From assembly GCA_018238205.1 (NCBI GenBank), contig JABCTV010000001.1, positions 1-64,000 on the forward strand: DNA of 64,000 bases. The letters are read 5' to 3'. A program made the translations under genes and the position numbers. Shown here in pieces: positions 22,717 to 27,030 of this stretch. Source of the DNA: Candidatus Thorarchaeota archaeon. Lineage in GTDB: Archaea; Asgardarchaeota; Thorarchaeia; Thorarchaeales; Thorarchaeaceae. Position 1 is the first letter of the stretch. Each line of letters starts with the position of its first letter. Below the pieces are notes generated by a model that made no database searches, had not been told where the DNA came from, and saw only the letters and a program-made list of their open reading frames with translations.

Positions 22717-24099
22717 TTGACTGACAAACTCTTTGGTACATCTGGAATTCGAGGTTCAATTATTGAGAAATCGACAACTGACCTGGCATTAAATCTAGGT
22801 AGAGCGCTGGGTACCTTTTTGGAAGGAAAAGGTACTGTAGGTGTAGGTACTGATGCAAGAACCTCGAAGGATATGCTAAGAAATAGTCTTGTTGCAGGAT
22901 TACTCTCAACAGGTATAGATGTCGTAGACTTGGGAATCGCGCCAATGCCAACTGTGGCATATTATAGTCAAATCGAAGGAATTTCTGCATCTGTTGTTAT
23001 AACAGCAAGTCATAATCCATCTGCAGATAATGGCTTCAAGTTTTTCAACAATGGGAGAGAATTTGTCAGGGAAGAAGAGGTGTTCCTAGAAACCTGTATC
23101 TCAAAAGGTCAATATCTCACTGCAAAATGGGATGAATGTGGCGAGGTTCGGTTTCTCAATATTAAAGAACAATATCTAACGCATGTCAAGGATTTCTTGT
23201 CTAGTAGAGGTAAACAAAGCAGTAGCACTAGAGTTCTAGTGGATTTAGCAAATGGTGCAGCAACGGAATACACTCCGCATCTGCTTTTGGAGATGGGTTT
23301 CTCAGTTACTACAATGAATTCACATCAAGATGGACATTTTCCAGGAAGACCTGCAGAGCCATCACCCAGAAACCTTGTAGATGCTATGAAAATGGCAGCG
23401 AACTCAGATTTTGCTGTAACAGTTTGTCATGACGGGGATGGTGACCGACTTGCAGTAATCGATGAACAAGGTGAATTCATAGATCAGAATCGTGTCATTG
23501 CGCTCTTTGCCAGAGATGAGGTCAAGAGAAATGGTGGAGGAATTGTAGTAGCTTCGATTGATACATCAAGTGTCATTGATGAACTTGTTACTGCAGCAGG
23601 AGGAACTGTGACACGAATGCCTTTGGGTTCCCTTCAGGAGTTTCTTACAACGGATAAGGGAAAGGATGTTGTCTTTGCTTCAGAACCATGGAAACCAATC
23701 TTTACCAAAATGGGTGCATGGATGGACGGAATCGCTGGAGCTGCACGTTTTGTACAATTGGTAGATGAGCTGGGTAATGGAAGCTGTATGAAATTGATGG
23801 AAACCATTCCAAAGTATCCAATATTGAGAGATTTCGTACCATGTCCTGATAAAATCAAGCCAAAATTCTTGCCTAAGGTGAAGGAGTTACTGGTTCCGAA
23901 GATGAGTGGAGTAGACCAGATTCTGGAAGTTGACGGTATTCGGATAGAATGTACAGATGGATCGTACGTTCTGGTTAGAGTTTCAGGAACCGAACCCAAA
24001 GCTAGAGTCTATGTTGGTGCAAAGGAGCAGGGAACAGTGGATAAGCTCGCATCTCTAGCCAAGGATGTTATGGCTCAAGTTCTTGAAGAACTCCAGTAA
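22717..24099 (+). CDS. glmM: Phosphoglucosamine mutase / phosphomannomutase family
   Basis: Alpha-D-phosphohexomutase of 460 residues. Domain I bears the phosphoserine motif T-A-S-H-N-P-S-A-D-N-G; domain II/III the Mg loop D-G-D-G-D-R-L-A-V; domain IV the phosphate-binding R-V-S-G-T-E-P-K-A-R. The sugar-specificity loop cannot be read with confidence: glucosamine-, glucose- and mannose-phosphate are all possible. The TTG start is supported by AAGGAG 8 bases before it. Second gene of an apparent operon with the PhoU-like regulator. Confidence 0.88.
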   Translation: MTDKLFGTSGIRGSIIEKSTTDLALNLGRALGTFLEGKGTVGVGTDARTSKDMLRNSLVAGLLSTGIDVVDLGIAPMPTVAYYSQIEGISASVVITASHNPSADNGFKFFNNGREFVREEEVFLETCISKGQYLTAKWDECGEVRFLNIKEQYLTHVKDFLSSRGKQSSSTRVLVDLANGAATEYTPHLLLEMGFSVTTMNSHQDGHFPGRPAEPSPRNLVDAMKMAANSDFAVTVCHDGDGDRLAVIDEQGEFIDQNRVIALFARDEVKRNGGGIVVASIDTSSVIDELVTAAGGTVTRMPLGSLQEFLTTDKGKDVVFASEPWKPIFTKMGAWMDGIAGAARFVQLVDELGNGSCMKLMETIPKYPILRDFVPCPDKIKPKFLPKVKELLVPKMSGVDQILEVDGIRIECTDGSYVLVRVSGTEPKARVYVGAKEQGTVDKLASLAKDVMAQVLEELQ

Positions 24100-24145: not shown

Positions 24146-24261
24146 GCCGGGGTCTCCTAGTGGCTATGGAGGCGGTCTCGAAAACCGTTATCTTCGGATC
24201 CGTGAGTCCTCGTGTAAATCAATTACACGAGGCACGAATTCAAGTCTCATCCCCGGCGCCA
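24146..24261 (+). tRNA. tRNA-Ser(CGA) with intron in the T arm
   Basis: The acceptor stem is 7 perfect pairs (GCCGGGG 24146-24152 with CCCCGGC 24251-24257), followed by G73 and an encoded CCA. The anticodon arm is GCGGT-CTCGAAA-ACCGT, anticodon CGA. The variable arm has ATC/GAT with a TTCG loop, as for class II Ser. The T arm as read directly cannot pair; removing bases 24207-24238 joins GTGAG to TTCAAGT and CTCAT, giving a five-pair stem and a canonical T-loop. Mature length is 81 plus CCA. Confidence 0.92.
24207..24238 (+). other. 32-nt tRNA-Ser intron between positions 53 and 54
   Basis: The intron folds as a 10-bp hairpin (CCTCGTGTAA/TTACACGAGG, 5-nt loop). Exon CGTG (24201-24204) pairs with intron CACG, flanked by 3-nt bulges AGT and AAT; cutting each after the second base removes exactly 32 nt, as expected for a bulge-helix-bulge site. 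The outer helix is absent, so this is a relaxed (HBh') motif. Confidence 0.8.
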
Positions 24262-24683: not shown

Positions 24684-24714
24684 AATGGTGCGGAGGGCGA
24701 GATTTGAACTCGCG
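24684..24714 (+). repeat. 31-bp direct repeat: copy of the tRNA-Leu 3' end
   Basis: These bases are identical to 26912-26942, which form the T arm, 3' acceptor strand, A73 and CCA of the intact tRNA-Leu gene (minus strand). The rest of the tRNA is absent here: no GCGGAGG 5' acceptor follows. Bases outside the 31 diverge immediately. This is the arrangement of an attachment-site duplication 2,228 bp from the tRNA. Confidence 0.85.
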
Positions 24715-24762
24715 GAAGATACAAAAGCTCCGATATTCCATAAACAATATTGGGAGTTATTG

Positions 24763-26862
24763 ATGAATAGACCAATCATCACAGCTGTAGTCATACTACT
24801 TCTGAGTTCACTTCTAATCGCGTCAAATGAATTCGGTTCGGAGTATGTAGAAATTGTATCCAACAGCTCAAATCATCTTTCTTCCTCAGATTTTATGCTC
24901 GAAAAGGTGGGAGACTTCTTTGACGGAAATGCATATGATGTAGCTATTCAGGGGTCTCTAGCATACGTTGCAGATGGAGGTGCAGGATTAGAAATAATCA
25001 ACGTTTCCATCCCCTCCAATCCAGTGGAAATAGGCGAATACTACGATGTGAAAAGTATCGCAACATCGAGTTGGGCAATCGGTGTGTATGTGTCTGGTGA
25101 CTTCGCATATATTGCAAATGCAGAGAGCGGTCTATTAGTGATTGATATTTCTAATCCTTACAATCCGATTAAAGTCAGTGAATATGATGATGGTGGATCT
25201 GCACAGGACGTGTACGTGTCTGGTGATTATGCATATGTGGCAGATGCAAGTCATGGTCTCGAGGTAATCAACATCACAAACCCAAGAAACCCAACGGAGG
25301 TCGGACAATATGTAGGTGGTGGGGCTGCATATGCAATTCATGTATCTGGAACCTATGCATACATTGGAGATGGGAATGCAGGGCTCGAAGTGATTGATGT
25401 TTCCGATCCAACCAATCCTTCAGAAATTGGTGTATTCAATAATAACAGTCTTGTGAGAGGTGTAAGTTCTTCAGGTGACTATGTCTACATTGCTGATCAA
25501 TTGAATGGTCTCAAAGTGATTGATGTTTCAGACCCTGCTAATCCCACTGCTGTTGGAGAGTATATTGATGGAGGAGGTGCTTGGGATGTATGTATCTCAG
25601 GGAACAAAGCATATGTTGTAGGCGGAGCGAATGATCTTGCAGTCCTTGATATTTCCAACCCGAATAACCCCGTGGAAGTGGCAAGCTTTACTGATGGCGG
25701 CTCAACTTGGGGTGTAGATGTATCCGGAAATTATGCTTATGTTGCAGATAGGAACCATGGGTTGGAAGTGATTGGACTTTGGAGTCAACCTAATCTTTTG
25801 AAGATCGGTGAACATCACAATTGTGGGCATGTTCAAGACCTTTGCGTGTCAGATGATTTTGCATACTTGTCACTTCATTACCATGATTACGAGAGAGTAA
25901 ATGTTTCAGATCCAGAGCGAATTACCTTTGCAGACGATTATCTAGATTTAGAGGGTGGTGGTGATTTGACTGTCATAGGGTCGAATGCTTATGCTGTATA
26001 CGGTATAGATGGGCTTAAGGTGAAGAGTATATTCGATCCAAGTAATCCTGTACTTGTAGGTCAATATGATGATGGAGATTCAGCTCTTGGACTAGATGTT
26101 ATGGGAGATTACGCATATGTTGCCTATGGATTAGATGGCTTCAAAGTGATAGACATTTCAGACCACACAAATTATACTATGACAGATGAATACAATGATG
26201 ATGATTGGTTGGGTGCTGTCTATGTATCCGGCGGTTATGCTTACATCACAGGAACGACTAATGTTGGTGGCGATAATTGGATTGGACAGCTCACAATAGT
26301 CAATGTTACTAATCCCTACAATATTACTCGTATGAGCAAATATTCCTATGGTGGATATTTCGATTGTGTTTATGTATTGGGACAATATGCATATCTTGCA
26401 TGTAGAACCAGCGGTTTGGTCGTACTCGATATCTCTAATCCTATGAATCCTATTCCTATGGGAAGTTATTCTGATTATCCAGGTCAAGCTGTAAATGTGT
26501 ATGTGGAAGGTGATTTTGCCTATGTAGCATACTGGGATGGTGGGTTGAAGATAATTGACATCTCTGACCCCATTAATCCCACTTTGTTTGTAGAGTATTA
26601 TGATGGTGGCTATGCACGGAGTGTAAGTGTTCTTGGTGACTATATACTTGTAGCAGATGGAGATCAAGGGCTCGAAGTCTTTGTAGTAGTCCCATATACA
26701 GAAACAGAATCAACTACAACAACTACTACTACAATCATAACAACCACAGATACACATACAATATCGGGGGAAGGGGTCCCACTATTTATGATAGGGACCA
26801 TCAGTATTGTTGCAATAGTGTTTGTGTTTACTTTGGTCATATACAGAAGAAGGGGCAACTGA
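24763..26862 (+). CDS. Secreted, membrane-anchored LVIVD-repeat beta-propeller protein
   Basis: A surface protein of about 699 residues. An N-terminal hydrophobic segment (I-I-T-A-V-V-I-L-L-L-S-S-L-L-I) looks like a signal anchor. It is followed by some fourteen repeats of about 42 residues ending in the pattern G-L-x-V-I-D-I-S-[DN]-P-x-N-P, the LVIVD repeat that builds beta-propellers. A Thr-rich linker (E-S-T-T-T-T-T-T-T-I-I-T-T-T) and a C-terminal membrane helix with R-R-R-G-N follow. ATG 24763 has GGGAG 7 bases upstream; an extension further upstream would translate the tRNA fragment and is artefactual. Ligand unknown. Confidence 0.82.
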   Translation: MNRPIITAVVILLLSSLLIASNEFGSEYVEIVSNSSNHLSSSDFMLEKVGDFFDGNAYDVAIQGSLAYVADGGAGLEIINVSIPSNPVEIGEYYDVKSIATSSWAIGVYVSGDFAYIANAESGLLVIDISNPYNPIKVSEYDDGGSAQDVYVSGDYAYVADASHGLEVINITNPRNPTEVGQYVGGGAAYAIHVSGTYAYIGDGNAGLEVIDVSDPTNPSEIGVFNNNSLVRGVSSSGDYVYIADQLNGLKVIDVSDPANPTAVGEYIDGGGAWDVCISGNKAYVVGGANDLAVLDISNPNNPVEVASFTDGGSTWGVDVSGNYAYVADRNHGLEVIGLWSQPNLLKIGEHHNCGHVQDLCVSDDFAYLSLHYHDYERVNVSDPERITFADDYLDLEGGGDLTVIGSNAYAVYGIDGLKVKSIFDPSNPVLVGQYDDGDSALGLDVMGDYAYVAYGLDGFKVIDISDHTNYTMTDEYNDDDWLGAVYVSGGYAYITGTTNVGGDNWIGQLTIVNVTNPYNITRMSKYSYGGYFDCVYVLGQYAYLACRTSGLVVLDISNPMNPIPMGSYSDYPGQAVNVYVEGDFAYVAYWDGGLKIIDISDPINPTLFVEYYDGGYARSVSVLGDYILVADGDQGLEVFVVVPYTETESTTTTTTTIITTTDTHTISGEGVPLFMIGTISIVAIVFVFTLVIYRRRGN

Positions 26863-26911
26863 AAAGTGAATCAAATACCACCATCCATCTAAAAAACTAA
26901 TTCCTGGGAGA

Positions 26912-26942
26912 AATGGTGCGGAGGGCGAGATTTGAACTCGCG
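26912..26942 (+). repeat. 31-bp direct repeat: 3' end of intact tRNA-Leu
   Basis: Identical to 24684-24714. Here the repeat belongs to the complete tRNA-Leu(TAG) gene and covers its T arm and acceptor 3' strand, the part most often used as an integration site by archaeal tyrosine recombinases. Confidence 0.85.
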
Positions 26943-27030
26943 AACTCCTACGAGATATCCCAATTTTAACTATTGTTAAAATTTCAGGGACCTAAACCCT
27001 GCGCCTTTAACCAAGCTGGGCAACCTCCGC
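26914..27030 (-). tRNA. tRNA-Leu(TAG) with intron after the anticodon stem
   Basis: Acceptor GCGGAGG (27030-27024) pairs perfectly with CCTCCGC (26924-26918); A73 and CCA are encoded. The anticodon arm is CAGGG-TTTAGGT-CCCTG, anticodon TAG. The T arm is GCGAG-TTCAAAT-CTCGC. Removing 26956-26984 joins CCCTG to TCTCGTAGGAGTTC, a normal Leu variable arm. Lies 57 bases downstream of the small zinc-ribbon gene. Confidence 0.93.
26956..26984 (-). other. 29-nt tRNA-Leu intron between positions 43 and 44
   Basis: The inner hairpin is AATTTTAAC/GTTAAAATT with a 4-nt loop. Exon TCCC pairs with intron GGGA (4 bp) between bulges TGA and TAT; cutting after the second base of each bulge removes 29 nt. The outer helix is only about two pairs, so the motif is relaxed. 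Confidence 0.8.

Follow-up and report, generated by a model that had tools for sequence, protein, structure and literature searches.

Predicted T-arm intron in a tRNA-Ser(CGA) gene of a Thorarchaeia archaeon and the turnover of such introns among its relatives

The tRNA-Ser(CGA) gene at positions 24146 to 24261 (+ strand) of the window, the whole 64,000-nt stretch of DNA analyzed here, is interrupted within its T arm. The host is an Asgard (Thorarchaeia) MAG whose 344 contigs total 3.57 Mb, with a completeness of 99.6% and a contamination of 6.9%. The gene has a GCCGGGG/CCCCGGC acceptor stem, the anticodon loop CTCGAAA with the anticodon CGA at 24179 to 24181 (+), a discriminator G, and an encoded CCA (24259 to 24261); this layout is shared by 11 orthologues. 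The T loop TTCAAGT (24239 to 24245, +) is followed by the 3' strand of the T stem, CTCAT (24246 to 24250, +). In the unspliced sequence, the 5 nt preceding the T loop (ACGAA) form only three of five pairs with CTCAT; by inspection, the sole upstream 5-mer fully complementary to CTCAT is GTGAG at 24202 to 24206 (+), the 5' strand of the T stem. When the 32 nt from 24207 to 24238 (+; TCCTCGTGTAAATCAATTACACGAGGCACGAA) are excised, ATCCGTGAG is joined to TTCAAGTCTCAT at the spliced exon junction, the T arm reads GTGAG-TTCAAGT-CTCAT, and a complete cloverleaf is restored. The initial annotation had described a gene of this kind, with a 32-nt intron at tRNA position 53/54 and a T arm that forms only after its removal; its coordinates and pairings were reproduced, and the position agrees with the T-arm consensus and with the registers of the orthologues.

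ARAGORN detected no gene in the precursor, with or without its anticodon-intron option, and the Rfam tRNA model did not match it even at E values up to 10; from the spliced sequence, ARAGORN called tRNA-Ser(cga). Such genes escape both ARAGORN and Rfam, so that the tRNA complement of an Asgard genome can appear incomplete. An ARAGORN excision scan was rejected as proof of the intron site because 403 of 3675 arbitrary excisions were also called, which makes the scan too permissive. The placement at 53/54 is therefore based on the T-stem and T-loop consensus, the orthologues and their register, and the BHB rule, not on ARAGORN. Registers 53/54 and 54/55 yield an identical product in the window, and in several orthologues 53/54 alone works.

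The archaeal splicing endonuclease cuts within the 3-nt bulges of a BHB motif, and the precursor can be folded into a relaxed form of this motif. The central exon-intron helix is composed of the exonic 5' strand CGTG (24201 to 24204, +) and the intronic 3' strand CACG (24233 to 24236, +), flanked by the 5' bulge AGT (24205 to 24207, +) and the 3' bulge AAT (24237 to 24239, +). According to the sequence and the BHB rule, cuts would be expected after AG (24206/24207) and after AA (24238/24239). On the intron side, a hairpin h' (24208 to 24232, +) has 10 bp between 24208 to 24217 and 24223 to 24232 and a loop at 24218 to 24222; its fold z score is -4.66, and none of 200 shuffled sequences was equally stable. 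No outer helix h fits beside the 3-nt bulge, and the minimum-energy fold has an alternative outer helix, GGAU/AUUC, with 1-nt bulges. The 10-bp hairpin, the 4-bp helix, and both bulges were present as first annotated, and the motif is probably of the relaxed HBh' type named there, with a central helix and inner hairpin and without a strong outer helix.

The 53/54 intron is found in 11 tRNA-Ser(CGA) orthologues, the window's included, from three genera of one family. The orthologous loci were located via the conserved upstream neighbor, a phosphoglucomutase/phosphomannomutase gene (22717 to 24099, +; Pfam PGM_PMM I-IV), whose matches are 64 to 96% identical and lie in loci all labeled Candidatus Thorarchaeota. 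The intron is 32 nt long (33 in one orthologue), and its 3' end always reads CACGAA before the exonic TTC. Among the 10 aligned sequences, two-sided changes occur at 7 of the 10 hairpin pairs, compared with 2.4 in shuffles (0 of 500 reached the observed number), and slid-alignment controls gave at most three pairs with such changes. The CGTG/CACG central helix is invariant in all 10; since its 5' strand doubles as T stem, this helix is not free to covary, and the covariation therefore supports the hairpin, not the central helix.

Two PF01974 (EndA-type) proteins are encoded in the genome, in addition to RtcB. The catalytic subunit is closest to Aeropyrum pernix EndA, with which it aligns over nearly its full length (E = 4.9e-43; PDB 3p1z, 3ajv), and it retains the catalytic His that 3ajv has in mutated form; the second paralogue has Asn in place of this His. 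K49-P50-K51 of the catalytic subunit is aligned opposite K44-P45-R46 in the crenarchaea-specific loop of the A. pernix enzyme; in crenarchaeal enzymes, K44 is reported to be conserved together with a basic residue at position 46, and the substitutions P45A and R46A to lower activity drastically (PMC12397907). The Asgard protein resembles the A. pernix (alpha-beta)2 enzyme (3p1z, 3ajv; PMC12397907) in the retained K44-P45, in a K at the place of R46, and in the His-less second subunit. The predicted subunit make-up is that of a broad-specificity (alpha-beta)2 EndA, and the two proteins would assemble and act accordingly. The need for a broad-specificity endonuclease had been anticipated in the annotation, and the K-P-K catalytic subunit with its paralogue lacking the catalytic His is the predicted type.

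Introns of the same class are present in other tRNA genes. The host carries them in Thr(CGU) (C94:8086-8191) and in Ala(GGC) (C206), the latter with an additional anticodon-loop intron; further 53/54 introns are found in Thr(GGU), Leu(GAG), Ala(CGC), Trp, Cys, Asp, and Phe, and the class extends to at least four Asgard families. This survey combined a covariance model built on the Ser introns with a T-arm rule scan, and isotypes were assigned by eye from the anticodons. Matches came from 85 of 228 genomes in the raw tally, which contains weak matches to intact T arms and is not an intron count. T-arm introns, as recognized from these sequences, are widespread in the Asgard tRNAs examined. In genome G013, Thr(CGU) has no such insert of 30 nt and differs from the spliced G000 gene at a single base; this intron-free allele corresponds to a natural spliced product and thereby establishes where introns of this class begin and end.

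From the anatomy, the conservation, the covariation, the intron-free allele of the class, and the presence of the splicing genes, we consider it very probable that 24207 to 24238 interrupts a functional tRNA-Ser(CGA) at position 53/54 as a protein-spliced archaeal intron with a relaxed BHB (HBh'). Before splicing, the 5' half of the T stem would pair with the intronic CACG in place of its mature partner; an (alpha-beta)2 EndA would then cleave both 3-nt bulges, at AG^T and AA^T, and RtcB would ligate the exons, upon which the T arm GTGAG-TTCAAGT-CTCAT could fold. Transcription of the precursor is presumed, and its cleavage and ligation would be expected from established knowledge of archaeal splicing.

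The gene might instead be a pseudogene broken by a small insertion, with another tRNA-Ser reading UCG. Displaced or broken tRNA-Ser pieces do lie nearby in other Thorarchaeia (C149, G036, G015), and the bin holds a second tRNA-Ser(CGA). Such a copy had been named in the initial annotation as an observation that would weigh against the intron reading, and a formal match exists at C149:1390-1488, with a 37/38 intron only. However, the DsrE and phosphoglucomutase genes are also present a second time on this 3.5-kb contig, which over 1.3 kb matches the genome of another genus at 87% identity; because of these features, we treat the copy as most likely a product of binning contamination and have set it aside as a refutation. 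Outside this contig, no other tRNA-Ser(CGA) was found in the host genome, and a single such gene was matched in each of G013, G002, and G007. Moreover, the cloverleaf exons are intact in 11 species, the intron length is constant, and the stem changes are compensatory, which makes a broken gene very unlikely. Even less credible is a tRNA that retains the insert and works with an enlarged T arm: the T stem partner would be tied up by the intron, the loop would grow to 39 nt, a normal T arm is seen in the G034 orthologue and in others, and a suitable splicing enzyme is encoded in the genome. As a separate matter, two short contigs of the host bin, C149 (locus L097) and C151 (locus L018), match another Thorarchaeia genus and are probably contamination from across the genus boundary, by which several tRNA genes appear twice in the bin.

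Position 53/54 is on a published list of noncanonical tRNA intron positions (PMC4090602), so the Thorarchaeal intron adds to a known kind. The annotation had regarded T-arm introns as mainly a feature of Thermoproteales-type genomes; they are not confined to that group, as the host belongs to Thorarchaeia, T-arm introns have been noted in Caldiarchaeum (PMC3293823), and abundant noncanonical tRNA introns have been published for other Asgard genomes (PMC11291895). The introns of Thermoproteales, other Crenarchaeota, and Caldiarchaeum are similar in their 53/54 position, BHB-like motif, shortness, and broad-specificity endonuclease (PMC4090602, PMC3293823), whereas those described here occur in Thorarchaeia and other Asgard families and include six states of one gene. 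Atabeyarchaeia and Freyarchaeia, likewise Asgard, have intron-rich tRNA sets with many introns at noncanonical positions; however, they represent other Asgard classes, and no T-arm analysis was found in the portion of that paper available to us (PMC11291895). No treatment of T-arm introns in Thorarchaeia was found in a literature search that fell short of most subscription papers.

Within one family, tRNA-Ser(CGA) exists in six states (no intron, 37/38, 53/54, 58/59, 37/38 plus 53/54, and 37/38 plus 58/59), of which the 58/59 assignment rests on register analysis and the BHB rule. In the closest sister genome, G005, the flanks are about 93 to 95% identical and tRNA positions 1 to 44 are 100% identical, and yet a 58/59 version takes the place of the variable arm, T stem, and intron; this replacement looks like a conversion of the tRNA 3' half. 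Thr genes offer comparable observations. In G009, Thr(CGU) (L246:1501-1606) has a 58/59-type intron where its relatives have 53/54, and a displaced old 3' end (L246:2829-2851) lies 1.2 kb downstream. In L144 and L272 (G000:C314:17256-17474), an intron-free Thr(GGU) is followed some 80 nt on by a displaced older 3' half with a 53/54 intron; here, an intron-free copy apparently overwrote an intron-bearing gene.

Beside a number of intron-bearing tRNA genes of Thorarchaeia lie genes for a protein family with helix-turn-helix repeats and usually two HNH-like modules (loci L027, L019, L018, L024, L097, L125, L175, L177, L185-L192, L200, and L201). PHROG HNH families match these proteins with E values down to 3.5e-16, the best Pfam HNH value being only 0.012, and the C..C, IHRKD, and LC..CH..H motifs are largely invariant in the alignment; a single-sequence AlphaFold model of one HNH protein (pLDDT 52) is too poor for a fold reading. 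No member was found in viral contigs. Nearly all of the roughly 20 two-module genes, some of them orthologues and hence not all independent, are separated from a tRNA gene by no more than about 170 nt; the exceptions are C149 (329 nt from a complete tRNA) and G007:C48 (875 nt), and the G036 gap was not exactly measured. Every fully read tRNA gene next to a two-module gene bears an intron, and related one-module proteins have no tRNA nearby. An HNH gene abuts Thr(CGU) with its T-arm intron and adjoins the T-arm-intron Ala(GGC) in G000, G005, and G009; further neighbors are Ser(UGA), Leu(CAG), Leu(CAA), Leu(GAG), Asp, Thr(UGU), and Ser(CGA). In two genomes from different genera (L097:1272-2995, L074:4383-6236), a complete tRNA-Ser(CGA) and an HNH gene form an inverted unit that separates the broken 5' part of another tRNA-Ser(CGA) from its 3' part. 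A role of the HNH gene as a required partner of T-arm introns is not supported: about 10 Thr(CGU) genes have the intron, an HNH gene is present only in G000 and G007 (875 nt), and the introns persist without it. The scarcity of HNH neighbors among T-arm introns also counts against simple homing by these putative endonucleases.

Close to tRNA genes, Thorarchaeia genomes commonly contain displaced tRNA 3' ends that lack a 5' part. In a scan with the acceptor 16-mer, the first tRNA-homologous base of these fragments is T54 or T55 in most cases. This point marks the T loop's 5' edge and is the border occupied by the 53/54 intron. The first fragment scan demanded a TTCRA start and was biased to T54; when redone from the acceptor 16-mer alone, the peak at 54 to 55 persisted, and intact or intron-bearing genes with an unrecognized 5' part in the resulting list were set aside by eye. 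Several intervals between such scars contain unrelated cargo genes, and no integrase was recognized by eye among the ORFs examined at the fragments. At L265, L266, L267, L269, and L273, tRNA-Ala 3' fragments follow each other every 0.5 to 3 kb, most of them from T54/T55, with unrelated cargo between them. Elements that target tRNA genes, such as the 1.8-kb insertion at a Caldiarchaeum tRNA-Thr, likewise have a complete tRNA at one end and a displaced fragment at the other (PMC3293823, PMC6563490); the Thorarchaeia differ in having many short cassettes and 3' fragments from T54/T55.

The window itself contains a scar of this sort. Its tRNA-Leu(UAG) gene (26917 to 27030, -) has a 29-nt intron at 43/44 (26984 to 26956), and a displaced 3' end of the same tRNA at 24684 to 24714 (-) is a 31-nt direct repeat of 26912 to 26942. 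Between the two repeats lies a 2.2-kb insertion with an LVIVD-repeat protein gene (24684 to 26942); the homology of the repeat reaches further upstream than T54. Both G005 and G013 have an empty site without this insertion. In G005, the tRNA-Leu(UAG) has an identical exon sequence and lacks the intron, and G013 has a similar intron; because the latter occurs without the insertion, a gain of the intron together with the LVIVD insertion was rejected.

How T-arm introns come and go is a further question, which complements the splicing explanation. Randau and Soll have proposed for tRNA introns in general, as cited in PMC4090602 and PMC3218864, that they impede integration, and the mechanism of such intron movement has been described as still unknown (PMC4090602). 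It is conceivable, although we hold it only tentatively, that T-arm introns are kept or moved through tRNA-targeting mobile DNA, a hypothesis described in the same two papers. Either the 53/54 and 58/59 introns might break the T-arm attachment core and so confer immunity, or they might ride on cassettes that replace the 3' half, including HTH+HNH/tRNA units. Most displaced Thorarchaeia fragments start at T54/T55, where the 53/54 introns sit; in G005, a 58/59 intron and a replaced variable and T arm stand amid otherwise near-identical flanks; the 58/59 intron of Thr(CGU) in G009 is accompanied by a displaced 3' end; and nearly all HNH-family genes have an intron-bearing tRNA gene at a distance of 0 to 170 nt. 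However, most T-arm introns, that of the window's tRNA-Ser(CGA) included, have no adjacent HNH gene, no integrase was identified at the fragments, and Thaumarchaeal elements also integrate into intron-containing tRNA genes (PMC6563490). Turnover, scars, and HNH pattern fit both integration blocking and an exchange of introns by 3'-half-replacing elements, and they prove neither. The fuller proposal, that Thorarchaeia T-arm introns occupy the cassette junction at 53/54 and are gained, swapped, and kept by blocking it or by traveling with HTH+HNH/tRNA cassettes, appears rather unlikely at present.

The tRNA-Ser(CGA) gene extends T-arm introns, and the type of enzyme that would remove them, to Thorarchaeia, and the wider pattern of turnover and scars matters more than the single intron. 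With six states of one gene, a replaced T arm in G005, and scars at the intron position, the integration-blocking idea becomes testable on natural material, which bears on how archaeal tRNA introns arise and on whether tRNA genes are thereby shielded from mobile DNA. If true, the proposal would provide a concrete mechanism for the gain and turnover of archaeal tRNA introns.
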